From positions 1 to 64,000 of the forward strand of contig NZ_CP166097.1 in assembly GCF_041228105.1 (NCBI RefSeq): a stretch of DNA of 64,000 nt. The letters run 5' to 3'. A program made the position numbers and the translations under genes. Below the pieces are notes generated by a model, which did not search any database, was not told where the DNA came from, and saw nothing but the letters and a program-made list of their open reading frames with translations. Below are positions 3,639 through 37,242 of the stretch, piece after piece. The number at the start of each line of letters is the position of its first letter. Within the stretch, counting starts at the first letter, position 1. The stretch comes from Pectobacterium aroidearum (GTDB taxonomy: Bacteria > Pseudomonadota > Gammaproteobacteria > Enterobacterales > Enterobacteriaceae).

Positions 3639-6074
<2,436 letters not shown>

Positions 6075-6356: not shown

Positions 6357-6469
6357 TGGCGAGCTTCCTGCCCGCCACCCTTTGGGCCGTCGTGAGCGAC
6401 GTTGAAAAACGTTCCCTACGTTTTTTTATGATGAATGTCCTGCTCGCCGTGACGTTGAAAAACGTTTTA
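6357..6469. repeat. Short intergenic repeat, two copies of a 16-bp motif
   Basis: The motif GACGTTGAAAAACGTT occurs at 6398-6413 and again at 6451-6466, with nearby CTGCCCGCC and GGGCCGTCG words. A related arrangement of the same words (CCTGCCCGCC, GGGCCGTCG, GACGTT) recurs between dppA and dppB near 59465-59505. This looks like a REP-type family of intergenic repeats. It may also act as the transcription end for the MFS gene on the minus strand. Confidence 0.5.
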
Positions 6470-7660
6470 TCAGGCTAATGCACGGCGTTTGGCGCTGCGC
6501 ATTTCCTGTAGCAGCGTGATGAAAGCGGTAATCAGCATAAAGATGACGGCAGACCAGAAAATAGCGTGAGGGTGGCCGTGATCCAGCAGCCAGCCGAACA
6601 GCACGGGTCCTGCAGCACCGCCGATGTTGAAGCCAGTAGAAACAATCCCAAAGACCCGTCCTTCCGCTCCCGGCGGTGAGGCAGCGCGTACCAGCATATC
6701 CCGGGAAGGGGCGATCATACCGGAGAGGAAACCTGCAGCAGCCAGCAACGGCACCAGGACGATAGTCGGTAAGGAATACATGGCAACAATACTGACGAGC
6801 ACGGCAGTCACGGCCAGCGCTGCTGTCGCTACCAGCCCGTGGCGTTTGGTTTTATCCGCCAGTGAACCGCCAGCCAGTACGCCAAAGGCACTGGCGAACA
6901 AGAACGCGGTAAGCGCCACGTTAGCCTGCGACAGCGACAAATCGTAGCCCGTGACTAACGCCGTCACGGAGAAATTCTGGATTGAACCCGTACTTAAATT
7001 CAGCAGCAGGAACAGAATCAGCAGCGCCAGAATCGGCAGCGTGAACACGGGCGCGCGCGATTTGCCCGGCTGGGTGCCTGTTGCCGCTGCAGGTTTCACT
7101 CGGCTAGGTTCATCGCGATCCGTCAGAAGCAGCGGTATCGTCAGTAAGCCGATGATGCCGGAAACGATGAAGGCGCTATTGATGCCGGAAAAGGCGGCGA
7201 TGGACAGCAAAATGCCGGGCGCAATGGCCGTGCCCAGAAAGCCGGAGAAGGTATGCACTGAGAACGCGCGGCCCATGCGTTTTTCATCAATCCCGCGCGA
7301 CAATAAGGCGTAATCCGCCGGGTGATAAACTGCGTTTGCCACGCCAGCCAGCCCCATCGCGGCAACCAACCAAACATAGCTGTCTGAGAAACCGAGCGAG
7401 AGAAAACAGAGGCTTCCGAGTGCTAAACCTGCGGTTAACGTACGGCGCGCGCCGATGCGATCCACCATAAAACCAATTGGCGTCTGCACACAGGCGGAGA
7501 CAATGTTGAATACGCTGAGTGCAAACCCGAGCTCGACAAAACTGATATCGCGCTGAGCTGACAGCAGTGGAATCAGTGCAGGCAGCACCATCATATGGAA
7601 GTGACTCACCAAATGCGCTGATGAGATTTGCGCCAGTAGCGGTAATTTTATGAATTTCAT
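6470..7660 (-). CDS. MFS transporter, probable drug or metabolite exporter
   Basis: Major facilitator superfamily secondary transporter of 396 residues with about 12 hydrophobic helices, located in the inner membrane. The loop 2-3 signature MVDRIGARRTLTAG and a second-half counterpart LADKTKRHGL are visible. The overall pattern resembles the Fsr (fosmidomycin resistance)-like group, but the substrate cannot be read from sequence. The open frame extends 23 codons further upstream; I place the start at MKFIKLPLL (7660) because the upstream part is Cys/Ser/His-rich, not membrane-like, and runs across the intergenic region. It is convergent with gyrB and divergent from the GFA gene. Confidence 0.8.
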   Translation of the reverse strand: MKFIKLPLLAQISSAHLVSHFHMMVLPALIPLLSAQRDISFVELGFALSVFNIVSACVQTPIGFMVDRIGARRTLTAGLALGSLCFLSLGFSDSYVWLVAAMGLAGVANAVYHPADYALLSRGIDEKRMGRAFSVHTFSGFLGTAIAPGILLSIAAFSGINSAFIVSGIIGLLTIPLLLTDRDEPSRVKPAAATGTQPGKSRAPVFTLPILALLILFLLLNLSTGSIQNFSVTALVTGYDLSLSQANVALTAFLFASAFGVLAGGSLADKTKRHGLVATAALAVTAVLVSIVAMYSLPTIVLVPLLAAAGFLSGMIAPSRDMLVRAASPPGAEGRVFGIVSTGFNIGGAAGPVLFGWLLDHGHPHAIFWSAVIFMLITAFITLLQEMRSAKRRALA

Positions 7661-7824
7661 ATTATCTTTGCAGCTTACGGGTCTGTAGATTTTATTATCG
7701 TGAGAGCTGGCGCAAGAACAGGGCGTCACTCCCTGGTAAATGGATCATAAGGTTAGCATATTACTTATATCATCGATGGCGAATATTGATACCCGCCTTG
7801 TCGGCAGATTAGGGAGAGAACGGC

Positions 7825-8193
7825 GTGACGATAAAATCATATTTGGGCGGATGTTTATGTGGTCAGATTCGGTTCAGGGCCTCGGGTGAACCGGGCAATC
7901 CACATGCCTGTTCCTGTACTTTTTGCCAGCAGCATTCCGGTGCGCCAACGCTGTTGTGGGTTGAGTTTCCCCGGTCGGCAGTTGAATGGATTGGTGAAGG
8001 CGGAGAACCCGCGCGCTATCGGTCGTCTGATTACTCCAGCCGGGCTTTTTGCCCGCACTGCGGCAGCACGCTGGGAGCGATTGATGATGAGCCAACCATT
8101 GCGCTGACGATTGGAAATTTTGATGAGAAAAACAGCCCGGAGCTGAAGCCAACGTCACATTCGTTCGAGGACTGCTGCCCGCGCTGGGAATAA
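7825..8193 (+). CDS. GFA/CENP-V family zinc-binding protein
   Basis: Small 122-residue protein of the GFA (glutathione-dependent formaldehyde-activating enzyme)/CENP-V fold. The zinc-ligand cysteines are visible: GGCLCGQIRF near 9-17, CSCTFC near 29-34 and FCPHCGSTLG near 75-84. Members are often annotated as S-(hydroxymethyl)glutathione synthases, but most have no proven activity. The start is GTG at 7825, preceded by the ribosome-binding site AGGGAGAG; no better ATG exists before the conserved Cys motif. It appears to be a single-gene unit divergent from the MFS gene. Confidence 0.85.
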   Translation: MTIKSYLGGCLCGQIRFRASGEPGNPHACSCTFCQQHSGAPTLLWVEFPRSAVEWIGEGGEPARYRSSDYSSRAFCPHCGSTLGAIDDEPTIALTIGNFDEKNSPELKPTSHSFEDCCPRWE

Positions 8194-8242
8194 TGCACAG
8201 GCCGTTGCCGGCCCGTGCAGGGGAGTTGGTGAAGAAGGGTAA

Positions 8243-10246
8243 TTACGAGAGCTTGAATACCAGCACCGTTTGCGCGAGCTGTCTGGCCTGTTCTTCCAGT
8301 GAAGCGGCAGCCGCTGTGGCTTCCTGCACCAGTGCGGCGTTCTGCTGGGTAACGCCGTCCATCTCGTGAACGGCCTGCGTCACCTGACTGATCCCGCGCG
8401 ATTGTTCATCCGATGCTGAGACGATCTCATCCATGATGTCTTTAACCGACGTGACAGCACGCAGCATGTCCTGCATGGTCTCGCCAGCGCTCTGAACCAG
8501 CGTGACGCCGCTGTCGACGCGGCTAGCGGATTCCGTTATCAAAGCGGTGATATCTTTTACGGCACTGGCGCTACGCTGCGCGAGGTTGCGCACCTCGTTG
8601 GCGACCACTGCAAAACCGCGCCCTTGTTCGCCCGCTCTGGCGGCTTCTACCGCCGCGTTGAGTGCCAGAATATTGGTCTGGAACGCGATGCCGTTAATGA
8701 TGCTGGTAATATCGGCAATTTTCTTCGAACTGTCGTCGATCTCACTCATAATGTGAACAACCTGACCGACTATCTTGTCACCTTTCTGAGCGATGTGGGC
8801 CGCGTTCTGCGCCAGCGTTGTGGCGTTATGGGCGTTATCCGCATTTTGTTTCACCGTCGCCGTAATCTGTTCCATGCTGGCGGCGGTTTCTTCCAGCGCC
8901 GCCGCTTGTTGCTCGGTACGGGAGGCCAGATCGGTGTTGCCTGCCGCAATTTCTGTTGCGCCGTGGCTGACGGATTCGCTGGTGCTAATCAACTGTTCGG
9001 CGATGTCTCGCAGCTGTGACTGCATAGCGTTCATAGCGTAAAAAATACTGCTATCGTCTTTTGGCTGCACAGGAATGGTCTGCGTTAAATCCCCCTGCGC
9101 GACGGACAGCGCGATCTGTGCAGCCTGAGCCGGTTCCCCACCGATAGGCCGAGCGACTTTGCGGTTAAAGATGATGCCTAGTACGCCAGAAACCACCACG
9201 ATACTCAGTACCATAAGCAGTAGCCCTATGTTGCGCTGCCGCACCGTTTCCGCCATCACCACATTAACGGGGGCGGACAGGCCGAGCATCCAGGGCGTAC
9301 CGGTATTGCCGATGGTGACTGGCACATACACGTTAAACGCTGGCGTGTTCAGCACGGCATTATCACGTTCAATCTGATAAGGCTGCCCTGTGGTGACATG
9401 CTCAAGCAGCGTCGGGTCGTTTTCAATTTTTTTGGTCACCCGGGCTTTTTCGGGGTGAGAGATGTAGGCACCGGAGTGCGACAGCAGCTGGGCGTAGCCC
9501 GTACCCTCATAGGGTTTGATGTTATTGGTGAGCTGTTGCAGCGTATCCAGCGAAAAATCCGCGGTGACGGAGCCGTAAAACTTATTGTTGATAATGATAG
9601 GCACGGCAATGGAGGTCAGCAGGACATCGACACCGTTGTAAGGGTAGCTATACGGTTCCAGAATCACTTCTTTCTGGAGTTTCTTCGGCAGCAGGTAGTA
9701 ATCGCCGCTGCCGGGCGTTTCATAATCCACCAGATTATGCAGAGCAACGTTGCCTGCGGTATCTCGGTCGACATAACGGACGAAGCGACCTTGCGGGTCC
9801 TGATCGGGCTGACCAGCGTACTCCCGATCTTTGCCGTCGAACGCATCAGGTTCCCATGCCAGCGACATCGAAAGGAAATCGGGGTGGCTCTTCAGCGCAT
9901 TCTTCAGCAGCGTTTCTGCGGTTTTCCGATCGGCATTGCCTGCTTCTTGCAGACTGACAACGCTCTGCACCAGATTGCGCGCCGCATGTAGCGCGACATC
10001 CAGCTTTTGCTGAATAAGGTAGCTGTTGGTATACGCTGTTTGCTCAAGATAATGCTGTGCGATGGTCTTTTGTTGCTGGCCGGATTGCCAGATCAACAGG
10101 CCGATAGTGAGAATAAAACCGAGTGCGATAGTGCTAACGCCCGCCAGGAGCATCAGCATCCGTGTGCTGAGTTTTCTTTTTGACGCGGTTGGTGAGGAGT
10201 GAATGGATGGATTGCTGTGGTTAACCGGTAACAGTGTTGTAGACAT
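8243..10246 (-). CDS. Methyl-accepting chemotaxis protein with periplasmic dCache-type sensor
   Basis: Inner-membrane chemoreceptor signalling to CheA/CheW. Of 667 residues: a basic N-terminus, a first transmembrane helix (about 35-55), a long periplasmic dCache-like ligand domain with aromatic/acidic patches ([34 protein letters not shown]), a second helix near 335-355, a HAMP region, and a signalling domain with the hairpin tip containing [21 protein letters not shown]. The ligand is unknown; dCache receptors often bind amino acids or organic acids. The open frame runs upstream to 10420, beyond the predicted transcription start, so the longest start is excluded. ATG at 10246 has AGGGGA at good spacing. 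No CheR/CheB-binding pentapeptide is seen at the C-terminus (VLVFKLS). Confidence 0.93.
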
Positions 10247-10378
10247 ATGCGTAATATCCCCTGGGATATAAGCGCCAATACCCGTCGATTTAGGGTATGT
10301 AGGTGCTTTTTTCATAAAAGAATCAATTGATTGTCTTCCTTTCTGTTTTATGGGCATTCCCTTCCGCGACTCACCCTT

Positions 10379-10400
10379 ATTTGTGATGTAAGTCACAAAT
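10379..10400. promoter_or_regulatory. CRP-like palindrome overlapping the chemoreceptor transcription start
   Basis: A 22-bp near-perfect palindrome containing TGTGA-N6-TCACA with A/T-rich arms, close to the CRP consensus. It starts 4 bp downstream of the sigma-28 -10 box and so covers the predicted start site. A bound protein there would be expected to block rather than activate this promoter. Seen in sequence; binding is inferred. Confidence 0.7.
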
Positions 10401-10403
10401 AAA

Positions 10404-10430
10404 TTATCGGCGGGAAACACTACCTCTTTA
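10404..10430 (-). promoter_or_regulatory. Sigma-28 (FliA) flagellar-class promoter for the chemoreceptor gene
   Basis: Read on the minus strand the site is TAAA (10430-10427), 15 bp, then GCCGATAA (10411-10404). This is an exact match to the enterobacterial FliA consensus in both boxes and spacing. It predicts transcription from about 10397, leaving a leader of roughly 150 nt, and ties the receptor to the motility regulon. Confidence 0.9.
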
Positions 10431-10530
10431 GGCTATTCACGAAAATGTCACAAATCGGCGCGGTCATAAACCGCATCAGTGTGATAGCGGATGAGATGTG
10501 AGGCATGACGCCTCATCGTGTGAACGAGGG

Positions 10531-11544
10531 TTAAGCGGCAGGGCCTCTGCTGACTGAATCTCGGATAATCAATTCGCCCTTGAAGTCAGGCGCAGGCTCG
10601 ACGGTTTCACCCTCCAGCCGGCACAGCAGTTTCTCAAGGGTATAGTTGATCATTTCGGCGACGGGTACGTGCACGGTAGTGAGCGGGGGATAGAACCATG
10701 AAGCCATCGGTAAATCGTCGAACCCCAGCAGCGAGACATCCTGCGGAATCGCAAGGCCGTGTTCGCGCAGCGCTTTTGCCGCGCCAATCGCCATGTCGTC
10801 ATTGCTGGCGACCAGTGCACTGAAAGTGGTCGACCGCTGAAGCAGGGTTTTTGCTGCCGAATAACCGCTGTCATGTGTCCAATCGCCAGGCGCAACCAGA
10901 CTGTCACTATAGGGAATCCCGTTTTCCTCCAGCGCCTGGCGGTAGCCCGCTAGTCGGCTCGTACCGGTGGGTGAATTCGGCGATCCGCAGATAAACGCGA
11001 TATCGCGATGATCCTGCGTAATCAGGTAATTGACGGCATCATGGCAGTGTTGCTGGTGGTCAGCACAGATACCGTTGTCACCGTGCCGATGCAGTGTGCG
11101 GTTGACGACCATAATCGGCTGTTCATGCTGTTCGATAATGCTTTCCAGCGCATCGATAGAAAGAAAGCGTGGATAGATAATGACGGCATCGCAGCGTAAA
11201 TCGAGCAGGAACTGGATCGCTTCCCGTTCTTCTTCCGCACTGTGTTTGCCATCCGCCATGATGAGCTGCCGCCCGTATTTTTCCGTCATCGTCGCCGTTT
11301 GGAACAGCAATTCGCTGAAATAGGGGCCGCTGTATAGCGTGTTGGTCACGACCAAGCCAATGATTTGCGATTTGCTTGTGGCGAGCTGGCGCGCCAGCAG
11401 GTTGGGCCGGTAGCCAATCTCTTCAATCGCCCGGAATACCCGATCCCGCGTGGTTTTACTGACGTAGTTATTCCCTGTCAGCACGCGTGATACGGTGGCT
11501 TTGGAGACACCGGCTTTTTTCGCTACATCAAGCATGGTTACCAT
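10531..11544 (-). CDS. ascG: LacI-family repressor, AscG-type
   Basis: Transcription factor of 337 residues with an N-terminal helix-turn-helix (TMLDVAKKAGVSKATVSRVL, 3-22), hinge region and periplasmic-binding-protein-like effector domain. The stretch VVTNTLYSGPYFSELLFQ and DGKHSAEEEREAIQFLLDLRCDAVIIYPRFLS strongly resemble E. coli AscG, repressor of the arbutin/salicin/cellobiose operon ascFB. It is divergent from the PTS operon that starts at 11759, which carries a LacI-type operator upstream. A role as sugar-responsive repressor of that operon is inferred from family and position. Confidence 0.85.
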   Translation of the reverse strand: MVTMLDVAKKAGVSKATVSRVLTGNNYVSKTTRDRVFRAIEEIGYRPNLLARQLATSKSQIIGLVVTNTLYSGPYFSELLFQTATMTEKYGRQLIMADGKHSAEEEREAIQFLLDLRCDAVIIYPRFLSIDALESIIEQHEQPIMVVNRTLHRHGDNGICADHQQHCHDAVNYLITQDHRDIAFICGSPNSPTGTSRLAGYRQALEENGIPYSDSLVAPGDWTHDSGYSAAKTLLQRSTTFSALVASNDDMAIGAAKALREHGLAIPQDVSLLGFDDLPMASWFYPPLTTVHVPVAEMINYTLEKLLCRLEGETVEPAPDFKGELIIRDSVSRGPAA

Positions 11545-11691
11545 CGTACTTTCCCGTTCTCCTTTTGCGCCGCTTTATGCCGTCATTATAGGGAAAAATC
11601 CTCCTTTTTTATCACCAATAACGCGTGTAGGGATAAAAATATTCCCCGATTGCGCTATTTATGATCGCCTTCAAAAAACAGTAAAAACAAT

Positions 11692-11707
11692 ATGAAACCG
11701 GTTGCAT
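11692..11707. promoter_or_regulatory. LacI-family operator upstream of the first beta-glucoside PTS operon
   Basis: Sixteen-bp imperfect palindrome ATGAAACCGGTTGCAT (14 of 16 positions symmetric) centred on the CCGG typical of LacI/GalR-family sites. It lies in the divergent region between the AscG-like gene and the IIB gene, 52 bp before the IIB start, so it could control both. Confidence 0.75.
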
Positions 11708-11758
11708 ATTATTTTTCGTCTTGCTTGAATAATAAAAAAACAGACGGTGAGGTGCAGT

Positions 11759-12064
11759 ATGAATAAGATTTTACTCTGTTGCGCAGCAGGAATGTCTACC
11801 AGCATGCTGGTACAGCGGATGGAAAAGGTCGCCGAGCAAAAGGCGATCGCTGTTGAGATAAAAGCCGTAGGTTTTGAAGAGTTTAGTGAACTGATTGATG
11901 AATATGACTGTTGCCTTTTGGGGCCGCAGATTAAGTATAAACTGTCTGAATTCAAAGTGATAGCTGACGAGAAAGAGAAGCCGATTGCGGTTATTAATAT
12001 GGTTGATTACGGCATGATGAATGGGGAAAAAGTCCTTAACGATGCCCTGGCGATGATCGCGTAA
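11759..12064 (+). CDS. PTS lactose/cellobiose-type enzyme IIB
   Basis: Cytoplasmic phosphocarrier of 101 residues in the PTS that imports and phosphorylates beta-glucosides. The N-terminal CAAGMSTSML loop carries the phosphorylatable cysteine (Cys8). It accepts phosphate from the IIA encoded two genes downstream and passes it to sugar bound by the IIC. The start ATG at 11759 follows GGTGAGG; an upstream in-frame codon at 11747 is rejected because it would overlap that ribosome-binding site. First gene of the operon IIB-IIC-IIA-GH1. Confidence 0.92.
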   Translation: MNKILLCCAAGMSTSMLVQRMEKVAEQKAIAVEIKAVGFEEFSELIDEYDCCLLGPQIKYKLSEFKVIADEKEKPIAVINMVDYGMMNGEKVLNDALAMIA

Positions 12065-12080
12065 TATAACGGGAGGAATA

Positions 12081-13394
12081 ATGAGTAAATTAACTGAGTC
12101 ATTATTCAGCGTTATCGAAAACCGTATTAGCCCAATCGCGGCGAAACTTTCCAGCCAGCGTCATGTTGTTGCCATTAAAGATGGGTTCATTGCGTCAATG
12201 CCCTTTTTAATTGTCGGCTCTTTTATGATGTTATTCGCTCATCCGCCTTTTAGCCCGAATAGTGAATGGGCTTTTGCGCAGTGGTGGCTGGGGATGGTGG
12301 AACGCCACGGCGAACAAATCATGATGCCCTACAATATGACGATGGGCATTATGGCGGTGTATATCACCAGCGCTATCGCCTATAACCTGGCACAGAGCTA
12401 TAAAATGAACGGTTTTATGGCCGCCAGCCTGGCGCTGATGTCGTTTATGGTCGTTGCAGCGCCGCAAATCGATAAAAGTCTGCCAGTTGGGTCGCTGGGT
12501 GGCGAGGGGATTTTTACCGCGATTATCGTGGCGATCTATTCGACGGAGCTGATGCATTTTTTGCAGAAGCACAATATTGGCATTCGCCTGCCAGAACAGG
12601 TACCGCCGAAAATCCGCCAGTCTTTCGATCTGCTCATCCCGATTCTTGCCATTTTCCTGACGCTGTTCCCGCTTAGCCTGTTCATGCAGAGCCAGTTCGG
12701 CATGCTGTTGCCGCAGGCGATCATGGCCGTCTTCGCGCCGATTATCTCGGCATCCGATTCGCTCCCTGCCATCTTGATCGCGGTGCTGCTCTGCCACCTG
12801 CTGTGGTTTGCCGGGATTCACGGTGCCGTTATCGTCGGCGGCATTTTGCAGGCGTTCTGGCTGACCAACTTAGGAATCAATCAGGAAGCGTTTAACGCGG
12901 GCGCACCGATCACCAAAATTTTCATTGAGCCCTTCTGGCAGTTCTTCATTACGGTGGGGGGATCGGGGGCGACCATGGGGCTGGTCTTTCTCTATCTGCG
13001 CAGCCGTTCTGCTCACCTGCGCTCCATCGGCAAGCTGGCCGTGGTGCCGAGCATGTTCAACATCAACGAACCGGTGATTTTTGGTTCACCCGTCGTGATG
13101 AACCCGCTGCTGTTCATCCCATTTATTACCGCGCCGCTGGTGAACGCCACCCTTGCCTATATCGCGTTAAAAACCGATTTGGTGCATCGCGTCATTTCGC
13201 TTGCGCCCTGGACAACGCCGGGCCCGATTGGCGCAGCCTGGTCTACGGGGTGGGACTGGCGTGCGGTGGTGCTGGTGGGGGTATTGATTGTCGTCTCATC
13301 CTTAATCTATTACCCCTTCTTCAAAATGTATGAACGTCAGTTGATCGAACAAGAAGTGGGCACAGCAGAGGAGGCAGTCAGTGATGCTCGATGA
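12081..13394 (+). CDS. PTS lactose/cellobiose-type enzyme IIC
   Basis: Inner-membrane sugar channel of 437 residues, family length, with about 10 hydrophobic segments. Conserved IIC features include KDGFIASMPFLIVGS near the N-terminus, the LLWFAGIHGAVIVGG segment in the middle and FNINEPVIFGSPVVMNP toward the end. It moves a beta-glucoside inward while IIB phosphorylates it. It starts 16 bp after IIB with GGGAGG upstream, and its 3' end overlaps the IIA start. Confidence 0.94.
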   Translation: MSKLTESLFSVIENRISPIAAKLSSQRHVVAIKDGFIASMPFLIVGSFMMLFAHPPFSPNSEWAFAQWWLGMVERHGEQIMMPYNMTMGIMAVYITSAIAYNLAQSYKMNGFMAASLALMSFMVVAAPQIDKSLPVGSLGGEGIFTAIIVAIYSTELMHFLQKHNIGIRLPEQVPPKIRQSFDLLIPILAIFLTLFPLSLFMQSQFGMLLPQAIMAVFAPIISASDSLPAILIAVLLCHLLWFAGIHGAVIVGGILQAFWLTNLGINQEAFNAGAPITKIFIEPFWQFFITVGGSGATMGLVFLYLRSRSAHLRSIGKLAVVPSMFNINEPVIFGSPVVMNPLLFIPFITAPLVNATLAYIALKTDLVHRVISLAPWTTPGPIGAAWSTGWDWRAVVLVGVLIVVSSLIYYPFFKMYERQLIEQEVGTAEEAVSDAR

Positions 13395-13710
13395 AACCAC
13401 GATAATGGAATTGATTATCTATGCGGGAGAGGCGCGCTCCAGCTCAATGGAGGCGCTGAGCGCCGCCAGAAAATATGACTGGGACAAGGCTGAAGAACTG
13501 CTGAACGCGGCTTCTGTGGCGGCGCGCAAAGCCCATCAAATCCAGACGGCTTTGATTGGTGCCGATGAGGGCAGCGGAAAAATCCCGGTCAATCTGATTC
13601 TGGTTCACGCGCAAGATCACCTGATGAACGCGATGCTATGCCGTGAACTGGTGGAGGAGCTGATTCAACTGCATCGGGAAATCTCCTCCCTGAAACAGCT
13701 TATAAATTAA
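13384..13710 (+). CDS. PTS lactose/cellobiose-type enzyme IIA
   Basis: All-helical trimeric phosphocarrier of 108 residues that receives phosphate from HPr and gives it to IIB. The motif LVHAQDHLMNAM (near 75-86) contains the phosphorylated histidine. The frame overlaps the end of IIC by 11 bp; GTG at 13381 immediately precedes ATG at 13384 and either could start, with GAGGAGG upstream. It is the only IIA of this class in the window, which matters because the second PTS operon at 37.6 kb has none. Confidence 0.92.
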   Translation: MLDETTIMELIIYAGEARSSSMEALSAARKYDWDKAEELLNAASVAARKAHQIQTALIGADEGSGKIPVNLILVHAQDHLMNAMLCRELVEELIQLHREISSLKQLIN

Positions 13711-13730
13711 TAATATGCAAACCTGAATAA

Positions 13731-15185
<1,455 letters not shown>

Positions 15186-26004: not shown

Positions 26005-26016
26005 TGCTGAATGTAA

Positions 26017-26058
26017 AAACGGACTTTCCTCTTTAGTGAGGAAAGTCCGTTTAATTTT
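26017..26058. terminator. Bidirectional terminator between the ABC operon and the DUF1471 gene
   Basis: Perfect 15-bp stem AAACGGACTTTCCTC/GAGGAAAGTCCGTTT with loop TTTAGT, followed by T-rich sequence on both sides. It serves two convergent genes. A second copy lies at 31239-31280. Confidence 0.9.
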
Positions 26059-26079
26059 TTGATTGTTTATCGGCAACCA

Positions 26080-26337
26080 TTATTTGTAGATAACGGCGAC
26101 GCCGCGCAGTTGATTATCACCTGTTGCAGACGTGATAGTGAAGGCGCTGGCACCGGCTTTTTCTGCTTTCTGAGCCAACTGTGCTTGCAGTGAATCCAGG
26201 CTACGGGCGGTAGCGCTAACTACGCCAAATTTTTCCAGACCTTGTGCCTGTTGTGAGGACACCTGCTCGGCAGCGAAAGCACCGAAAGACAGGGTAGAAA
26301 GTACGACAGCAGCGGCGAAGAATTTTACGTTTTTCAT
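26080..26337 (-). CDS. DUF1471 (YhcN/BhsA-like) small periplasmic protein, copy 1
   Basis: Protein of 85 residues with a signal peptide (MKNVKFFAAAVVLSTLSFGAFA, cleavage near AFA-AE) and a DUF1471 domain with the conserved VSATARSLDSLQAQLAQKAEKAGASAFTITSATG and a C-terminal LRGVAVIYK. E. coli relatives (BhsA, McbA, YhcN, YdgH) are induced by stress and affect biofilm or acid/peroxide tolerance; the molecular role is unknown. Start ATG at 26337 matches the family. It lies between the ABC operon and ssuB. A near-identical copy is at 31302 and a diverged one at 40796. Confidence 0.9.
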   Translation of the reverse strand: MKNVKFFAAAVVLSTLSFGAFAAEQVSSQQAQGLEKFGVVSATARSLDSLQAQLAQKAEKAGASAFTITSATGDNQLRGVAVIYK

Positions 26338-26509
26338 GTGATATATCCTGTTCAATGTTGTTTGGAGTGAAAGGGCATTTCCTTTCGATGAAGAGGATAT
26401 TACGCCGATGCAGACAGAAGGAAAAACGGAGTGTTTTGAGAATATCTGTCAATATTTTTGATGTTAAATCTGGCGATAAGATGCACAGTCTCGATCGCCA
26501 GAAGGAAGG

Positions 26510-29312: not shown

Positions 29313-30335
29313 TTAGTTCGCCTTGGGACGCCAGACGCGCTCTGCGATATTGACCTTCACCGGTACCAGACGGTTTTCATAAAACAGGTCGGCCGTGGAT
29401 TGCTGTGCCTTGATCGTGGCGGCATCCAGCGGTTCTATGGTGGTCGGCGGGCGATGGTCGAGCGCCGTTTCAATCACTTTTTCCGGCAGTCCTACCGCGT
29501 TTGCCAACAGAGTGACGCTTTGCGCCCGGTCGCTGATCGTTAAGGCATCGGCCTTGGTCAGCTCGTCCAGTACCTGGCGAATAAAGGTGCCGTGCGCCTC
29601 GGCATAAGGACGACCAGCCAGATAGAAGGAACCGGTTTTCTCCAGCCCGCTGCTATCGACCAGCACGCGAACGCCGCCTTCCAGCAGCGCGGCGGAATAG
29701 TAGGGATCCCAGATTGCCCATGCATCGACGTTGCCTTGCTGGAAGGCCGCGCGCGCATCAGCGGGAGTCAGGTAGGTCGGTTTGATATCGGTGAATTTCA
29801 GTCCGTCACGTTGCAGCGCCCGCAGCAGCGTATTATGTGCGCTGGAGCCTTTCTGGAAGGCGACTTTGCGACCTTTTAAATCAGCAACGGTTTTCACTGG
29901 GCTGTCTTCCCGCACCAGAATCACTTCGGCTTGAGGCTTCGGCGGCTCCACGCCGACATACAGCAGGTCTGCGCCAGCAGCCTGCGCAAAAATCGGCGGG
30001 ATATCGCCAGTGCCACCCAGATCGATGCTGCCAACGTTGAGCGCTTCCAGCATCTGCGGACCGGCGGGGAACTCAATCCAGCTGATTTTGGTGTTTGGGA
30101 ACTGCTTTTCCAGCAACAGGTGTGATTTTGCCAGCACCAGACTGATCGAGCCTTTCTGATAACCGATGCGTAACTGCGTGGGTACGCTGTCTTGTGCATA
30201 AGCCGTGGACATGAACAGCACTGCGCTGGCAACCAGAAGCGTAGGGATCCGGCGTAGCTGCGTCGCTACGTTTTTCCATAATGGCGTGCGTTTCTCACGT
30301 ATTTCCGTGACCGATTTTTTCATCATCAATGACAT
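29313..30335 (-). CDS. ssuA: Aliphatic sulfonate-binding periplasmic protein SsuA
   Basis: Solute receptor of the sulfonate importer, 340 residues, family SBP_bac_3/NMT1-like. After a basic N-terminal stretch a signal peptide ends near STAYA-QDS (about 48). The mature part begins LRIGYQKGSISLVLAKS and includes EFPAGPQMLEALNVGSIDLGGTGDIPPIFAQAAG, typical of SsuA. Start MSLMMKKS at 30335 has GGGAGAGG upstream and is chosen over the longer frame to 30437. First gene of ssuADCB. Its first bases are duplicated at 35289-35347. Confidence 0.94.
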   Translation of the reverse strand: MSLMMKKSVTEIREKRTPLWKNVATQLRRIPTLLVASAVLFMSTAYAQDSVPTQLRIGYQKGSISLVLAKSHLLLEKQFPNTKISWIEFPAGPQMLEALNVGSIDLGGTGDIPPIFAQAAGADLLYVGVEPPKPQAEVILVREDSPVKTVADLKGRKVAFQKGSSAHNTLLRALQRDGLKFTDIKPTYLTPADARAAFQQGNVDAWAIWDPYYSAALLEGGVRVLVDSSGLEKTGSFYLAGRPYAEAHGTFIRQVLDELTKADALTISDRAQSVTLLANAVGLPEKVIETALDHRPPTTIEPLDAATIKAQQSTADLFYENRLVPVKVNIAERVWRPKAN

Positions 30336-30979
30336 GCCTATGACCTCTCCCTTATAACGAAAAATTAAAATGCAGCGAGAAAATGCAACATCAGGTGATA
30401 AACATAACAGGGGGGAAGTGGGCTTTTTAAATCTCAATTTGTCGTTTTTATAGCCAAAAGTAGAAAATGCCTGAAATCAGCACACTAAGATCCTATCCCA
30501 ATAGGATTTTATTGATTCCACTTTGTCTTCGATGGGAGGAGTTCCACTGCTCTATCCAAAGCACGTCTGTGTCAACAAGCGAGCAGTAGATCGGCGGCTG
30601 GCGATAAGTAATGCGTGCTGCCTGAGACTCAGTTCCGTCACAGAGACGCGTGCCCAAATCTGATTTTTCAACGAAGCCTCACAGACATTGAAAAGTCGTT
30701 ATCAGCCAGTTTGTTTATTTGGTATAACAACTTTCCATCTTGTCACGCCTTTACCACGTTGTGACGAATCGCTGAGGGCAGTATGTGGCTTTAACAGATT
30801 CATCCCAGGACAAAGCGCCTCGGCAGGAACACTCTGACTCTGGGCGGATTTCAGGGCTGGCGCTGCTGGTTGCCAGCGCTTTTTTTATGGAGTTTCTTGA
30901 TGGAACGGTGATTGCCACGGCTCTGCCAGATATGGCAAAGGCGTTTGGCGTCACGGCGATAGACCTTAATATTGGTATC
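30277..30979. repeat. Duplicated block B, copy 1 (ssuA 5' end, intergenic region, MFS start)
   Basis: About 703 bp repeated almost identically at 35289-35991, at a constant offset of 5012. It contains the first 59 bp of ssuA, the whole ssuA-MFS intergenic region (including a 7-bp-stem hairpin ATCCTAT/ATAGGAT at 30490-30507) and the first 65 codons of the MFS gene. No gene was seen in 30336-30784. Confidence 0.95.
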
Positions 30980-31199
30980 CGGTTCGATGGTGCTGGCCGT
31001 GTTTGCAGGCAATTTGGCGATGAAGCCTGCGACCACGCCGCTAATTCGCTACTTTGGTTTCCGCAAGCTACTAATCAGTAATGGTATTGCCTGCGTATTG
31101 ACGCTGCTGCTGTGCGCGCTGCTCTATATTGCCGGCGTAGCGTTGGTTGGTGCACTGTCCTACATCGTACTGGTGGGCGAAGTGAAGCGTGTAGGGTAA
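30785..31199 (+). pseudogene. Broken DHA2-type MFS gene, mosaic remnant
   Basis: The first 65 codons are identical in reading to the intact MFS gene at 35797. The sequence then jumps at 30979 to the equivalent of 36737, a 746-bp deletion that shifts the frame. It continues with MFS sequence to 31124 (equivalent to 36882) and then switches to unrelated DNA. That DNA encodes, in the original MFS frame, a hydrophobic tail YIAGVALVGALSYIVLVGEV and a stop at 31199, probably the C-terminus of some other permease (NCS1-like is a guess). Two lesions make a functional product very unlikely. Confidence 0.9.
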
Positions 31200-31238
31200 T
31201 TCATCTGGGTGTTTAAGGCTTGGGCGAAAGCCATAAAA

Positions 31239-31280
31239 AAACGGACTTTCCTCTTTAGTGAGGAAAGTCCGTTTAATTTT
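31239..31280. terminator. Bidirectional terminator, copy 2
   Basis: Same 15-bp stem and TTTAGT loop as at 26017-26058, carried along in the duplicated block. Confidence 0.88.
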
Positions 31281-31301
31281 TTGATTGTTTATCGGCAGCC
31301 A

Positions 31302-31559
31302 TTATTTGTAGATAACGGCGACGCCGCGCAGTTGATTATCACCTGTTGCAGACGTGATAGTGAAGGCGCTGGCACCGGCTTTTTCTGCTTTCTGAGCCAA
31401 CTGTGCCTGCAGTGAATCCAGGCTACGGGCGGTAGCGCTAACTACGCCAACTTTTTCCAGACCTTGTGCCTGTTGTGAGGACACCTGCTCGGCAGCGAAA
31501 GCACCGAAAGACAGGGTAGAAAGTACGACAGCAGCGGCGAAGAATTTTACGTTTTTCAT
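31302..31559 (-). CDS. DUF1471 (YhcN/BhsA-like) small periplasmic protein, copy 2
   Basis: Protein of 85 residues, differing from the copy at 26080 by a single visible residue (EKVGV instead of EKFGV). The Val version matches the third paralogue at 40796 and is probably ancestral. Signal peptide and DUF1471 domain are as in copy 1, and the upstream region is also duplicated for over 160 bp, so it probably keeps the same promoter. It sits directly left of the AT-rich island with the HD-HSP90-like gene. Confidence 0.9.
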   Translation of the reverse strand: MKNVKFFAAAVVLSTLSFGAFAAEQVSSQQAQGLEKVGVVSATARSLDSLQAQLAQKAEKAGASAFTITSATGDNQLRGVAVIYK

Positions 31560-31725
31560 GTGATATATCCTGTTCAATGTTGTTTGGAGTGAAAGGGCAT
31601 TTCCTTTCGATGAAGAGGATATTACGCCGATGCAGATAGAAGGAAAAACGGAGTGTTTTGAGAATATCTGTCAATATTTTTGATGTTAAATCTGGCGATA
31701 AGATGCACAGTCTCGATCGCCAGAA

Positions 31726-32260
31726 TACAGTTGGTTTGACTTCTAACGTTTCTTTATTGCTCTTTTGGCTTTTAGGCTAGGGGTGGTTGAAAGTGTCTCT
31801 AAATGTCGATATTCTTAATTTTTACAGTTGTGAAAGTGAAGACATAGAAAGATTTTTCTTATACGGCATGGCAATTATCTCAGCGAGATACATGCCCTGA
31901 TGAATTTTAATATACTTTTTAATAAATGATTTTATTAAAATTTATTCCAATACTTAGTGTGTCTTAAAGTAATGGATGACAAAATTATGATTATATTCTC
32001 AAAATTAAAAACATGTTCTATTTTCTATAGAATAGATTGAAGACTTGTGTATCATACATAGATTTAGTGTCCTTGCGTATAAATGAGGCCAGAGCAATTT
32101 TTTGCGTGAATATATAAAAGGCACACATGTTCCTAATTTATTATACAGGTTGGCAGAACTTATTAAAATATCAGAGTGTTATTTTTATTCTATGGAATGT
32201 TATTTTCAAAAATCTTTCCAATATAAAATTGTCTATTTTTGTTATGAAAGTTAAGGAATA
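31726..32260. other. AT-rich non-coding left flank of the island
   Basis: Base composition falls abruptly at 31726. No open frame of note and no tRNA is seen on either strand. Several TATAAT-like words (for example TATACT near 31913) could serve as a promoter for the 929-codon gene, but none stands out. The region ends with AAGGA, the ribosome-binding site of that gene. Confidence 0.6.
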
Positions 32261-35050
32261 ATGATGCGAATTGAACAAAGACTTAAAAAACTAGCGGATG
32301 AAAATCCTAATTACTCTCTTTTGTGGGCTCAATGGGAGTTTGATAAAAAACTTCTTTCTAGAGCATTAAATACAATTTCTCGGGATTTTCCACACTATAG
32401 TCTTCATGATGCTTCCCATTCATCGACTATCATTACCCAGATTGAAAAGGTTATATCCTCAAATATAGAGAATTTATCGGCTACTGATTGTTGGCTATTA
32501 CTTGAGTCTTGTTATTGGCATGATGCAGGAATGATTATTACAAGTGAGGAAAAAAAAGGATTATTAGCAAGTGCTTCTTTTTTAAATTACTTAAAAGATC
32601 TGTCAGAAACAAACCATGAGCTTTCCACTCATGCCCAATTAATCTTACAAAGTAAAGAAGAAAATGATATAGTCAAAGCTCTTAATATATCTAATTCATT
32701 GACATTTGTGATTGCTGACTATTTTCGTAGTATACATGCTGAACGTTCAGGGTTAAATGTCAACGATCCTACAAGAATAAATGTTTTTTCCCCAAGAACA
32801 TCTTTGATCCCACAGCGACTTTTTAATTTTGTTGCCCAAATAACACAATGTCATGGAAGAAATAGAGAGTCGATCTTAGGTTTAGCTAAATATAATGATG
32901 GGATGGATGCTGAAGATTATGCACATCCGCGATATGTAGCTGCTTTATTGAGGGTTGGGGATCTTTTAGATATTGATGATGGTCGTTTTTGTCCAACATT
33001 ATTACATAATATCGGAGATGTCCCTCAATCATCACTTGATCATCAAGAAAAACATGCATCAATAAGGCATTTATTGATTAATAGTGAGGTCATAGAGATA
33101 AGGGCAGAATGTGAGGGGTATGGTGCATACCATGCTCAACAAAGTTGGTTCAACTATATTCAGGACGAATTTGATTATCAAAAGAGGATATGGAATGAGA
33201 TTGTTCCTGATAGCAACTATAGAGCTCTTCCAACTATAGGGTTACTTTCTTGTGAAATAAAAGGTTATATTGCAATTGATGGAAAAGTTCCTAAATTAAC
33301 ATTAGATTCTCAAAGAGTATATAGTTATATTACAGGAGCTCAGATTTATAGCGAACGATATCCTTTTGTTAGAGAGATTATTCAAAATTCTATAGATGCG
33401 ACTTATTACAAAGTGTGGGAGGATTTAATCTTTGATAATAATGAATATGAAAATAATGGTAATGAAATACGAGAGATATTTAATGATAAACTTATTGGTT
33501 ATAGTATTGATGTTTCTCTCCATGAACAAGATCTAGATGATGTAACCCTGAACTCTTTTAAGGTTCGAGATTATGGTACGGGGATGAATCTTAAAGATAT
33601 TAAGAAAATATTAGTTGTCGGTTCAGAATCTACAGACTCGAGAAAAAAACTAAATCAGACTATGCCTGATTGGGCAAAGCCTTCTGGCTATTTTGGTATT
33701 GGGCTGCAAAGTGTATTTAAACTTTGTAGTAAGGTAGTTATTAAAACAAGGATGGTAGAAAACCCTTGTTATGAAATTACTGTGATCAATGATTCTTCTT
33801 CTAAATTTTATAATATTGCTATAAGAGAGATTGATGATGTAAGATTTAAAGGTACTGAAATTACAGCTATATTTACCGAGAAAAAATCTGATGCGTTTAG
33901 TAATGTCGATATGTCATATAAAATACTACGACAAGGTTTTGATCCCTTAGCAGATACAGAGGTGAGTCTTTTTCGTAAATATTTGATGAATACTTTATCA
34001 GACGATTTTGACTGTAGTAATGTAGTCGTAAGATTTGAAGATAAGGCTTTTTTTAATGATGTAAGTAAAAAGAAATTCAATAGTGGAAAAGACAATAATA
34101 TAAATATTACAGATTATGACATGGGTGTGGATATTAGTGTGGCTATAGATATTGAATCTGATGGTTATTCTTCTATTGATTATAAGTATAAAGGTGTGGA
34201 GTTTGATTTGCCAAAACCCATTATGGGTTTATATGGTGAGATAAATATATTCAAATATGATGCAGGATATTGGCTTACTATTGACAGAAAGAAAGGGAGA
34301 ACCGATCGGGAACCTGAATTGTATCTCCTTAAAAAGGAGATAATTGAAAAACATTCAGACTATTTAAGAAAAAACACAGTGGATAAAAACCAGGCTGATT
34401 TTTTAATTTATGCCTATACTGGAAATTCAGTTTCTGACAACTGGAGAGATTTTGAAATAAAAAATATAAAAGTTAGCGATTATCTTGAAGGTCGTAGTGA
34501 GTTATTATCTATAATGGATCGATATCCGTACCGTAACAATACAAACCTTGTTAGCATAGATTCACTGCAGATGAACCTCTTGGCTGAAATTTCACGGCGA
34601 CAAAAAGTAAGTATAGACGTTGATTTTAGCAGTTCAACTAGAAATAAAAAAATGAATAAAAATGTAGGGCAAATATATAATTTTAAGTTTCGCAATGATA
34701 AAAAATCTAATTTTAAAGCTAATTATGGTTTGATAAAAAACGAACTTTCTTTGGATAGAATGTATGCTTGGGGACGACAAAGTATCCCTTGTTATTCTGA
34801 TGATTACTTAGATGTTTCTATTTCAAAGGACATGCTTCCTAATGGTATATATTCATCTTCTTCATTAAATCGATGGGTAAGTAGTCATTTATTTTCTCCT
34901 AAATTTTCTCCAAAGGAGGATAAAATAGATGTTGAGAAGGAACTTGATGTTTTATATATGTATTATAAAAAGCTTTCTCTTCTCAAGGTAGATGAAGATG
35001 AATTCAAACGAAAATATCTGGAAGTCTGGCGTGATTTAGATTTTATTTAG
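32261..35050 (+). CDS. HD-domain / HSP90-like (GHKL) ATPase fusion, predicted defence or conflict protein
   Basis: Large protein of 929 residues, unlike its neighbours in base composition (roughly one third G+C by eye). Numbering from the first Met: the N-terminal half has an HD-hydrolase pattern with YSLHDASHS (47-54), CYWHDAGM (84-91, His87-Asp88) and LLRVGDLLDIDD (229-240) as metal ligands. The second part has a GHKL/HSP90 ATP site: N-box REIIQNSIDAT (371-381), Asp box VRDYGTGMN (435-443) and glycine lid SGYFGIGLQSVF (475-486), then a GTEI motif (531-534). The C-terminal 350 residues are unrecognised. HD plus HSP90-like ATPase combinations are known from predicted bacterial immunity systems; nucleotide or phosphate-ester hydrolysis triggered by infection is inference. 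Two ATGs are in tandem; 32264 has better spacing to AAGGA. Appears to stand alone. Confidence 0.85.
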   Translation: MMRIEQRLKKLADENPNYSLLWAQWEFDKKLLSRALNTISRDFPHYSLHDASHSSTIITQIEKVISSNIENLSATDCWLLLESCYWHDAGMIITSEEKKGLLASASFLNYLKDLSETNHELSTHAQLILQSKEENDIVKALNISNSLTFVIADYFRSIHAERSGLNVNDPTRINVFSPRTSLIPQRLFNFVAQITQCHGRNRESILGLAKYNDGMDAEDYAHPRYVAALLRVGDLLDIDDGRFCPTLLHNIGDVPQSSLDHQEKHASIRHLLINSEVIEIRAECEGYGAYHAQQSWFNYIQDEFDYQKRIWNEIVPDSNYRALPTIGLLSCEIKGYIAIDGKVPKLTLDSQRVYSYITGAQIYSERYPFVREIIQNSIDATYYKVWEDLIFDNNEYENNGNEIREIFNDKLIGYSIDVSLHEQDLDDVTLNSFKVRDYGTGMNLKDIKKILVVGSESTDSRKKLNQTMPDWAKPSGYFGIGLQSVFKLCSKVVIKTRMVENPCYEITVINDSSSKFYNIAIREIDDVRFKGTEITAIFTEKKSDAFSNVDMSYKILRQGFDPLADTEVSLFRKYLMNTLSDDFDCSNVVVRFEDKAFFNDVSKKKFNSGKDNNINITDYDMGVDISVAIDIESDGYSSIDYKYKGVEFDLPKPIMGLYGEINIFKYDAGYWLTIDRKKGRTDREPELYLLKKEIIEKHSDYLRKNTVDKNQADFLIYAYTGNSVSDNWRDFEIKNIKVSDYLEGRSELLSIMDRYPYRNNTNLVSIDSLQMNLLAEISRRQKVSIDVDFSSSTRNKKMNKNVGQIYNFKFRNDKKSNFKANYGLIKNELSLDRMYAWGRQSIPCYSDDYLDVSISKDMLPNGIYSSSSLNRWVSSHLFSPKFSPKEDKIDVEKELDVLYMYYKKLSLLKVDEDEFKRKYLEVWRDLDFI

Positions 35051-35191
35051 TGATAAAGAAAAGTTATTTATATCTTTTTTATTATCAGTCTAAAACTGAA
35101 TTTTGACGGTTTTGTTGTTTATTACAAAGCCTCATTACATATTGTTATTCTTGGGTTTTACATATAAGAACTGGCAGAAAAATACTTTGTC

Positions 35192-35347
35192 ATAGAAGGA
35201 ACCGGTTTTCTCCAATCTTCAGCATCGTTTAGGGTCTGGGCGGATACGAGCAGCAGGGCGCCGGCGTAGCCGCGCTGTCAGGTTGCTCCATAATGGCGTG
35301 CGTTTCTCACGTATTTCCGTGACCGATTTTTTCATCATCAATGACAT
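35192..35347 (-). pseudogene. ssuA: Remnants of a second ssuA copy
   Basis: Two pieces of ssuA remain. An exact 23-bp match to the ssuA interior (29622-29644) lies at 35192-35214. Then, after a degraded stretch still recognisable around CCGGCGTAGC, the exact 5' end of ssuA lies at 35289-35347, including its start codon (35347) and ribosome-binding site. The frame opens as MSLMMKKSVTEIREKRTPLW but then diverges and stops. This shows that a second ssu operon once stood here. Confidence 0.88.
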
Positions 35348-35991
35348 GCCTATGACCTCTCCCTTATAACGAAAAATTAAAATGCAGCGAGAAAATGCAA
35401 CATCAGGTAATAAACATAACAGGGGGGCGGTGGGCTTTTTAAATCTCAATTTGTCGTTTTTATAGCCAAAAGTAGAAAATGCCTGAAATCAGCACACTAA
35501 GATCCTATCCCAATAGGATTTTATTGATTCCATTTTGTCTTCGATGGGAGGAGTTCCACTGCCCTATCCAAAGCACGTCTGTGTCAACAAGCGAGGAGTA
35601 GATCGGCGGCTGGCGATAAGCAATGCGTGCTGCCTGAGACTCAGTTCCGTCACAGAGACGCGTGCCCAAATCTGATTTTTCAACGAAGCCTCACAGACAT
35701 TAAAAAGTCGTTATCAGCCAGTTTGTTTATTTGGTATAACAACTTTCCATCTTGTCACGCCTTTACCACGTCGTGACGAATCGCTGAGGGCAGTATGTGG
35801 CTTTAACAGATTCATCCCAGGACAAAGCGCCTCGGCAGGAACACTCTGACTCTGGGCGGATTTCAGGGCTGGCGCTGCTGGTTGCCAGCGCTTTTTTTAT
35901 GGAGTTTCTTGATGGAACGGTGATTGCCACGGCTCTGCCAGATATGGCAAAGGCGTTTGGCGTCACGGCGATAGACCTTAATATTGGTATC
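35289..35991. repeat. Duplicated block B, copy 2
   Basis: Second copy of the 703-bp block at 30277-30979. Here the MFS gene continues uninterrupted. The intergenic part 35348-35796 holds no gene, only the hairpin ATCCTAT/ATAGGAT near 35502-35519. Confidence 0.95.
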
Positions 35992-37242
35992 AGCGCTTAT
36001 TTATTAACTCTGGCAGTGTTGATCCCGGCTAATGGATGGGTTGCGGAGCGCTTTGGTGCGCGGAATGTATTTACCCTGGCGCTGTGCATTTTCACGCTCT
36101 CATCCCTATTATGCGGCCTGAGTCATAACGTCACTGAGTTTGTTCTGATGCGTATCCTCCAGGGGGTCGGTGGTGCCATGATGGTTCCGGTAGGACGTCT
36201 GGTCGTTCTGCGTACCACCCCGAAGGATCAGTTGATTAAGGCGATCGCAACGCTAACCTGGCCCGCGCTGGTGGCACCGATCATTGGGCCACCGCTGGGC
36301 GGATTCATTACCACCTACGCCAGCTGGCACTGGATTTTCTTTCTCAATGTCCCCCTTGGGCTTATCGCCATCGTGCTGTCATTGCGGATGATGCCTAACC
36401 AGTCAGCGAACGAGAGTAAGCCGTTTGATTTCCCTGGGTTTGTCGCTACAGGCGTAACAATGTTGTGTCTGGTCGTAGGGCTGGAAATGCTCAGCCAGCA
36501 AAATGTCAGCCTGACCGGAGCCGCGGTCACTATTGCGATTGGCCTTGCCACGTTGGTGTGGAGTGTCCGTCATCTTTTGACCTGTAAAACGCCGCTGATT
36601 GGCCTATCTTCGCTTTCGGTGCCTTCATTTCGCATCAGCATGCGTGGGGGATTTATTCTTCGTGCGACGATCAGCTCCGCGCCCTTTATGTTGCCACTGA
36701 TGTTTCAGGTTGGCTTCGGGATGAACGCGTTTGAAGCCGGTTCGATGGTGCTGGCTGTGTTTGCAGGCAATTTGGCGATGAAGCCTGCGACCACGCCGCT
36801 AATTCGCTACTTTGGTTTCCGCAAGCTACTAATCAGTAATGGTATTGCCTGCGTATTGACGCTGCTGCTGTGCGCGCTGCTCACTCCAGACTCACCGCAT
36901 CTGATAACGCTGACGCTGCTGTTCCTCGGCGGGCTGAGCCGTTCCATGCAGTTTACCGGCATCAGTTCGCTGGCGTTCGCTGAAGTTCCGTCGCAAGAGA
37001 TGAGCTCAGCCAATACGCTGTTCAGTACCTCACTCCAGCTCGCCAGCGGCTTGGGGGTAACAATGGGGGCGCTAAGCATACGCTTGGGCAACATCCTCAG
37101 CGATGAACTGGGTTATACAGCCGTGCCTGGCATGGGGTTTCGCCTGGGATTTGTGGTCATTGCGATTATTACCGCCTTCGGCGTGTATGATATGACGCGA
37201 CTCGCACCAAATGCGGGTATCAACGTCTCGCAGAAAAAATAG
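35797..37242 (+). CDS. MFS multidrug-type exporter, DHA2 family
   Basis: Inner-membrane proton antiporter of 481 residues, the length expected for a 14-helix DHA2 (EmrB/HsrA-like) transporter. N-terminal ASAFFMEFLDGTVIATALPDMA, the motif A NGWVAERFGARNVFTLA and motif C-like GPPLGGFITTYASWHWIFFLNVPLG are clear. Similar in pattern to E. coli HsrA (YieO). The substrate is unknown. Start is GTG at 35797 with GAGGG upstream; an overlapping ATG at 35795 is in another frame that stops at once. This is the intact partner of the broken copy at 30785. Confidence 0.9.
   Translation: MALTDSSQDKAPRQEHSDSGRISGLALLVASAFFMEFLDGTVIATALPDMAKAFGVTAIDLNIGISAYLLTLAVLIPANGWVAERFGARNVFTLALCIFTLSSLLCGLSHNVTEFVLMRILQGVGGAMMVPVGRLVVLRTTPKDQLIKAIATLTWPALVAPIIGPPLGGFITTYASWHWIFFLNVPLGLIAIVLSLRMMPNQSANESKPFDFPGFVATGVTMLCLVVGLEMLSQQNVSLTGAAVTIAIGLATLVWSVRHLLTCKTPLIGLSSLSVPSFRISMRGGFILRATISSAPFMLPLMFQVGFGMNAFEAGSMVLAVFAGNLAMKPATTPLIRYFGFRKLLISNGIACVLTLLLCALLTPDSPHLITLTLLFLGGLSRSMQFTGISSLAFAEVPSQEMSSANTLFSTSLQLASGLGVTMGALSIRLGNILSDELGYTAVPGMGFRLGFVVIAIITAFGVYDMTRLAPNAGINVSQKK

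Follow-up and report, generated by a model that had tools for sequence, protein, structure and literature searches.

An HD-CE/Hsp90-like fusion protein of Pectobacterium aroidearum is a candidate single-protein anti-phage system

Introduction

What does a protein do that carries an HD-type hydrolase domain in front of an Hsp90-like ATPase, and how did its gene come to lie in an AT-rich island? The question is raised by a 929-codon gene on the forward strand of Pectobacterium aroidearum (positions 32,261–35,050 of the window, by which we mean the whole stretch of 64,000 nucleotides analysed here, which opens a genome assembled as one contig of 5.28 Mb; assembly GCF_041228105.1, contig NZ_CP166097.1). 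An original prediction, made from the sequence alone, had singled the gene out as a possible one-gene phage-defence system with the HD domain as effector and the ATPase as sensor or switch. Our analysis tips the balance, by a modest amount, toward a horizontally acquired and probably anti-phage single-protein system, in which an Hsp90-type clamp would switch an HD phosphohydrolase effector during infection.

Results

Domain architecture of the fusion protein

The gene has the coordinates, length and single open frame originally given for it. The motif AAGGA (32,253–32,257, counted by hand) lies directly 5′ of its ATG. Because the frame is open in the window and likewise in P. aroidearum L6, whose protein is 100% identical after rounding, a pseudogene was rejected. 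A Pfam scan of the protein at E up to 1 returned two families alone, and neither a DUF4263 nuclease domain nor a nucleic-acid-binding domain was found in it. The HD-CE domain (PF24391) covers residues 43–305 (32,387–33,175, forward strand) with an E of 1.2e-46 and 160 bits against a cut-off of 27, matching positions 1–262 of the 263-position profile. Its ligands H49-D50-H53, H87-D88 and D234 follow the H...HD...D pattern of the HD superfamily, and H159 and H198 complete the set. HATPase_c_3 was found at residues 370–513 (E 1.3e-6, 29 bits against a cut-off of 25), where the boxes of a GHKL ATP site are present as E372/N376/D379, D437-G439-G441 and G479/G481. Both sets of residues thus stand where they had been placed, and the Pfam E-values together with the residue invariance described below led us to reject a chance motif.

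Structure prediction, which had been proposed as a check, recovered both an HD fold (model predicted local distance difference test score, pLDDT, 86.9) and an Hsp90 fold. Residues 346–745 align structurally with the N-terminal and middle domains of Hsp90, with the joint fold of the two domains and the ATP-site boxes in place, at 12–20% identity in the alignments listed. The N-terminal ATPase domain spans about residues 346–545 (33,296–33,895, forward strand) and includes E372, N376, D379, D437, G441, G479 and G481; a profile of seven sequences (the window protein among them) also reached Hsp90 N-domain structures, with E down to 6.2e-13. The middle domain follows at about residues 560–742 (33,938–34,486, forward strand) and contains R676 in the motif LTIDRKK. 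The ATP-site boxes were therefore read correctly at the outset, and the module that holds them is the N-terminal plus middle unit of Hsp90 rather than a bare GHKL domain. By the same token, the C-terminal third that had been called unrecognised (residues 560–929) shrinks to about residues 743–929 (34,487–35,047, forward strand). This remainder has no recognised fold and is mostly modelled at a pLDDT below 50, which bears on a possible Hsp90 C-terminal dimerisation domain.

Compared with Hsp90, HtpG and TRAP1, the window protein thus has an HD domain in front and no recognised C-terminal dimer domain. It also falls far short of the equivalog cut-offs for HtpG in NCBIfam, its weak matches within residues 360–547 reaching 35.4 bits where 371 are required and 36.4 where 455 are. 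Given these scores and the HD domain, an ordinary HtpG was rejected.

The structural matches of the HD domain fall in several HD branches, the best being Ppx/GppA and cyclic-nucleotide phosphodiesterases. Nucleotides or cyclic nucleotides are therefore the first candidate substrates, and nucleic acid is also possible. A defence protein whose HD domain is instead a Cas3-like DNase or RNase, loaded onto nucleic acid by the clamp, is an explanation we consider unlikely. Some HD domains are indeed nucleases, GHKL clamps such as MutL handle DNA, and the Shedu protein VcSduA, discussed below, couples a GHKL ATPase with a nuclease. The best structural matches point elsewhere, however, the H-D-x-x-H ... 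H-D pattern recalls cyclic-nucleotide phosphodiesterases, and the Pfam scan did not reveal a nucleic-acid-binding domain.

Conservation of the two active sites

Relatives were drawn from sampled genomes, viral contigs, plasmids and phages (genome tallies count the window's own genome), and 31 HD-Hsp90 proteins, the window protein included, were aligned. All 31 share H49, H53, H87, D88, R156, H159, H198, R231, D234 and R242 in the HD part, and E372, N376, D379, D437, G441, G454, G479 and G481 in the ATP site. Slightly less strict are D50 (27/31), D239 (28/31), G439 (29/31) and R676 (29/31). As both active sites are invariant, both activities appear to have been kept together. Outside the sites the picture is graded: over the 15 pairs formed by the window protein and five close relatives, identity averages 59.4% in the HD domain and falls to 41.6% in the Hsp90 N-terminal domain, 29.8% in the middle domain and 22.5% in the C-terminus. 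This gradient would fit a fixed effector with a changing sensor, and it falls short of proof.

A tree of 31 proteins splits into three groups: A, which holds the window protein; B; and C, made up of L164 and L165 (loci are given L numbers). L102, L104 and L161a are basal to A. The aligned set omits L076 and L004, which contig ends truncate; L077 and L106, whose frames are broken or short; L110, from the phage that also has L079; L001, L002 and L003, which duplicate the window; L159 and L166, on contigs shorter than 4 kb; and L172, the plasmid hits H4, H5, H8 and H9 and the phage hit H6. Loci of other architecture stand outside it, namely L081–L085, L087 and L105 (HD-CE with no Hsp90 part in frame) and L086 and L088 (iHD-CE).

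Relatives in a phage hotspot and near defence genes

Twelve viral contigs carry a relative (L107–L117 and L168). In three of them (L108, L110 and L111) the gene sits between Phage_GPA and Phage_portal, and the copies at this site of P2-like phages span two groups of the tree: L108 and L079/L110 belong to A, and L111 to B (L110 being, by eye, the same phage as L079, a locus of genome G188). The available parts of two reports describe the gpA–portal interval of P2-like phages as an anti-phage hotspot (Rousset 2022, PMC9122126; Vassallo 2022, PMC9519451); the terms Hsp90, HATPase and HD domain are absent from both main texts. In the prophage contig L107, an HNH_2 gene (6,769–7,710) overlaps with its end the longest HD-Hsp90 frame and is a possible partner; an EVE identity for this upstream gene was rejected, as Pfam assigns it to HNH_2.

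Other relatives lie about 1–5 kb from known defence genes. A Pantoea plasmid (L014) has GajA (E 9.5e-103) and GajB (5.6e-39) in the vicinity, L073 has PtuA (1.4e-124), PtuB (5.8e-29) and a ThsB-type TIR protein (4.2e-179), L015 has AbiD (6e-37) and L016 has AbiEii (2.4e-109). The copy on a Zymomonas plasmid adjoins a TIR protein. At L163 (8,502–15,896) the HD-Hsp90 gene is grouped with an ATPase-like protein that has hydrophobic stretches (by eye), a HaeIII-type endonuclease and a C5 methylase, and the cluster adjoins tail-like phage genes (by eye). The HD part of this relative matches the PADLOC profile of the defence reverse transcriptase UG24 (positions 692–910, E 1.3e-16), so that a similar HD domain seems to be used in a defence reverse transcriptase. 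As a separate observation, L102 (8,138–15,170) has a SIR2-like gene (by eye), a small gene, an SMC-like ATPase gene and the HD-Hsp90 gene on one strand, possibly in one operon.

To put numbers on these surroundings, we compared the neighbours of 13 loci (L073, L074, L075, L077, L078, L080, L102, L103, L104, L106, L014, L015 and L016; the set excludes L076, L079, L004 and every viral contig) with random regions. Up to 11 frames per locus were taken, of at least 120 amino acids and within 8 kb; they were called by longest open frame, so some will be spurious in GC-rich genomes. Of 17 control regions drawn, 16 were used (one overlapped), and 125 of 150 control frames were drawn, from which one of 1,908 residues was dropped for size. 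The 125 neighbour proteins matched 241 PADLOC families and the 124 control proteins 13. Since many of the 241 are near-copies of PtuA or GajA models, loci are the better unit: a specific PADLOC match was counted by hand in at least five of 13 loci against none of 16 control regions (Fisher p 0.011), with a cut of E <1e-17 and the models mad3 and mad8 set aside, choices made after the tables had been inspected. Five is a minimum because it comes from a tally of the first 25 of the 241 families and single scans of nine of the 125 neighbours. L102 is counted only through its ATPase (LmuB, 2.6e-18), and a match at L106 (PDC-S04) lies beyond the 8-kb limit and is uncounted. The neighbourhood survey suggested at the outset thus found that some relatives have defence-related surroundings, with a modest enrichment.

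Several observations weigh against a defence role. The enrichment is not only modest; three of the five positive loci are on plasmids, to which the chromosomal controls are not matched, and chromosomal loci alone give 2/10 against 0/16 (p 0.14). The window gene has no defence neighbour, since eight of ten scanned neighbours match no PADLOC model and the other two are ATP-binding cassette transporter ATPases, whose matches are mostly to mad3 and mad8, models of ATPases in general. Phage genes were not seen by eye around it, and L080, L160 and L162 look by eye like lone islets. The window protein itself matched no family of the 2023 PADLOC library at E up to 1. Foldseek alone gave no HD match at E 0.001, and low-probability zinc transporters were among the matches listed. 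The link to defence that had been predicted therefore holds for relatives in the P2 hotspot or near defence genes and fails for the window's own surroundings; it is the relatives that support it. With statistics this modest, the place in P2-like phages is the stronger argument.

A membrane protein beside some relatives

Some relatives have a further gene next to them. It encodes an unnamed membrane protein, about 160–185 residues long, that has the motif E-R-[YF]-K-x-I and three hydrophobic stretches and was recognised at L115 (12,667–13,182), L161 (11,195–11,749; one of its three stretches is N-terminal and the last is missing), L164 (5,379–5,867) and L165 (8,690–9,163). With a profile built from the four, another was detected beside L014 (14,786–15,244) on the Pantoea plasmid (E 4.4e-13). 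In these five loci the membrane gene lies 34–239 bp from the HD-Hsp90 gene, on the opposite strand. When viral contigs were scanned for nothing but the membrane protein, two loci came up: the L115 contig and the previously unseen L168 (8,001–8,486), where an HD-Hsp90 gene is again present on the opposite strand, 333 bp away. The membrane gene is thus found in six of 37 HD-CE loci (34 of the 37 pass a strict N-box plus G-box pattern) and in all three groups of the tree. The description of a one-gene system is accordingly true of the window and does not extend to these six loci.

Among 394 genomes of the order, the membrane protein occurs in three, all at HD-CE loci; as those three supplied rows of the model, the informative part of this result is its absence elsewhere. 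No Pfam family was found over the cut-off (there are weak CD20-like, CGLD27-like and Voltage_CLC matches), and neither the two of these proteins tested against PADLOC nor the two tested against PHROGs had a match. It was not found in the window genome. A tblastn search of plasmids and phages returned none, a search we judge insensitive because the L014 homologue is on a plasmid and went unfound.

We regard the membrane protein as a candidate second component, perhaps another effector or perhaps a regulator. That it is the true effector, with HD-Hsp90 as its sensor or regulator and the window copy incomplete or differently wired, seems improbable to us. The gene lies 34–333 bp away in six loci from three clades, and the searches of viral contigs and the 394 genomes found it only at HD-Hsp90 loci; against this, the great majority of the 37 loci and the window genome do without it, and the HD site is invariant in all 31 proteins. 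An effector role for the HD domain remains our preferred reading.

L161 also has two different HD-CE genes 2.7 kb apart (5,715–14,722), one of group A and the other, which has a weak HATPase match, basal to A. The pair is downstream of genes that look Tn7-like by eye.

Distribution of the family

Genome G004 (same species by listing) and P. aroidearum L6 both carry the window protein at 100% after rounding, with 2,103 against 2,111 bits and so not letter-identical; the two are probably one record. Two of 25 genomes of the genus carry a relative, and ten of 295 genomes of the family match at E 0.001, three over the full length and seven partially (ATPase region only, E 6e-4 to 9e-4). HD-CE exceeds the Pfam cut-off in 17 of 398 genomes sampled across the phylum (one only with neighbouring pieces in frame), five of 369 across the class and 14 of 394 across the order. 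Eleven of the 14 score at least 145 bits, and the phylum and class scans gave 13 matches of at least 140 bits. Of 12 of these that were checked, 11 (all but L081) have an Hsp90-type N-box in frame with HD-CE, as does the window protein. Matches were found in five plasmid records, in one case across 80% or more of the length, and the phage collection holds one unannotated 7-kb record (27.9% identity over 54%). The E. coli genomes showed no DNA match for the window island or three relatives, and scanning viral contigs with L102 or L015 as single-protein queries gave no confirmed relative. In PHROGs the window protein and L108 have no match; L111 matches a profile for topoisomerase (1.6e-5) over its ATPase part. 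Overall, true relatives are rare and patchily distributed.

A host chaperone-like or stress protein with no part in phage defence would account for the Hsp90 N-terminal and middle domains and for window neighbours that look metabolic. The rarity just described, the scores far under the HtpG cut-offs and the carriage on mobile elements make it very unlikely. Carriage by phages and plasmids, together with a phosphodiesterase-like HD fold, could also suggest that the HD domain destroys a cyclic nucleotide immune signal on behalf of prophages and plasmids, as counter-defence or signal control. We give this little credence: the chromosomal copies in the window, L080, L160 and L162 have no mobile element visible by eye, relatives occupy a P2 place known for defence, and an ATP-gated enzyme of 900 amino acids is large for the role.

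HD-CE also occurs in other contexts: in L085 it is joined to an nSTAND NTPase (just above cut-off) and TPR matches are weak, and in L084 it is joined to WD40 repeats. Such domain shuffling is a habit of effector domains in conflict systems. The related iHD-CE (PF24401) occurs with wHTH-HSP90_Na-assoc in L086 (8,331–11,717) and L088 (7,297–11,079). A pattern check did not find an HDxxH-type motif in these two proteins, whereas the window protein has all ligands and is a clear HD-CE at residues 43–305. A reading by eye of the L086 and L088 N-termini as an Mrr-like restriction endonuclease had no Pfam support and was not used.

An AT-rich insert in a duplicated locus

The fusion gene lies in an insert (31,731–35,254) of 31.4% guanine plus cytosine (GC). 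The gene itself has 32.0% GC and 22% GC at third codon positions, against 49–56% and 49–73% in six backbone genes. The strong AT bias that had been noted is thus real, and it supports horizontal acquisition.

Self-comparison of the window places the insert in the second copy of a duplicated locus. The upstream edge is a segment (31,237–31,725) that is 99.2% identical to 26,015–26,503 and carries a small gene, presumably DUF1471-like. The downstream edge is a 737-bp direct repeat (35,255–35,991), 97.4% identical to its other copy at 30,243–30,979, which spans the end of what we take by eye to be an ssu-like operon and the start of a presumed major facilitator superfamily (MFS) transporter gene. 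Copy 1 runs from the small segment through the ssu-like operon (about 26.5–30.2 kb) and the 737-bp repeat to an isolated 146-bp internal fragment of the MFS gene (30,979–31,124, 99.3% identical to 36,737–36,882), a scar of duplication or rearrangement. Copy 2 runs from the small segment through the HD-Hsp90 gene and the 737-bp repeat into the complete MFS gene (35,797–37,242). The gene therefore does stand where copy 1 has a metabolic operon, as had been proposed. In G024, a relative within the genus, the arrangement is single-copy and without the insert. A simple history would be that the HD-Hsp90 gene and the operon were once alternative contents of one site, and that recombination in the flanks united both in one genome.

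Discussion

The closest tested analogue of the fusion protein is VcSduA, the GHKL-type Shedu protein of Vibrio cholerae. According to the available part of its report, VcSduA stops phages, and the proposal made there is that its nuclease is under the control of its ATPase (PMC12137116). The likeness is that one protein joins a hydrolase effector to a GHKL ATPase, its presumed controller; the difference is that VcSduA has a C-terminal DUF4263 nuclease, and the window protein an N-terminal HD domain with an Hsp90-like ATPase and its middle domain. Clover CloA and other anti-phage deoxynucleoside triphosphatases likewise use an HD-superfamily effector against phage, but CloA is regulated by nucleotides and a partner nucleotidyltransferase, and an Hsp90 module is unmentioned in the part of the source available (PMC12265719). 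The window protein differs from the defence reverse transcriptase (DRT) UG24 in having no reverse transcriptase and no UG24 match.

Literature searches on HD-CE, PF24391 and HD with Hsp90 or GHKL, which covered neither subscription papers nor supplements, yielded no paper that we recognised as describing this fusion among the matches listed. Term look-ups likewise did not find it in the accessible portions of PMC3710099, PMC11090510, PMC8195603, PMC13092281, PMC10853773 and PMC10907252, and in what was available of DefensePredictor the sole related mention is the word HATPase in one legend. The original prediction had called the system undescribed. Because the HD domain is already a Pfam family, with iHD-CE as a relative and an entry that names the domain and attaches no function, the word fits the function rather than the domain. 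As GHKL-gated defence enzymes are known, too, what is new is this combination, as a variant of them.

From the features computed here we infer how defence, gating, sensing and substrate could fit together. The Hsp90-like N-terminal and middle module would be an ATP-driven clamp that acts as a switch, and the sensor surface would likely lie in the variable C-terminus (and the middle domain). The effector would be the conserved N-terminal HD-CE domain, a putative metal-dependent phosphohydrolase or phosphodiesterase acting on nucleotides or nucleic acid. At rest, the HD domain would be kept off by the clamp. An infection cue would bind the clamp or the C-terminus and alter the ATP cycle, so that the HD domain is released or assembled; breakdown of its substrate would then stop phage growth, probably harming the cell. 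In some relatives the opposite-strand membrane protein may add a second effector or a regulator.

Seen across the relatives, the case is evenly balanced that these proteins form an immune family built on the Hsp90 clamp, with a conserved HD effector, an N-terminal plus middle gate and a C-terminal sensor that changes fast. Its members would span at least three clades on prophages, plasmids and chromosomal islets and include a two-gene form with the membrane protein. The family offers a compact and testable model, since each of the two active sites lends itself to clear point mutants, prophages in a known hotspot supply natural copies, and there is a candidate membrane partner. Hsp90 is known as a machine for protein folding, and in plants and animals it also assists immune receptors. 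If our reading is true, a bacterial Hsp90 clamp would itself be the switch for a hydrolase, which would be a new use of the clamp.

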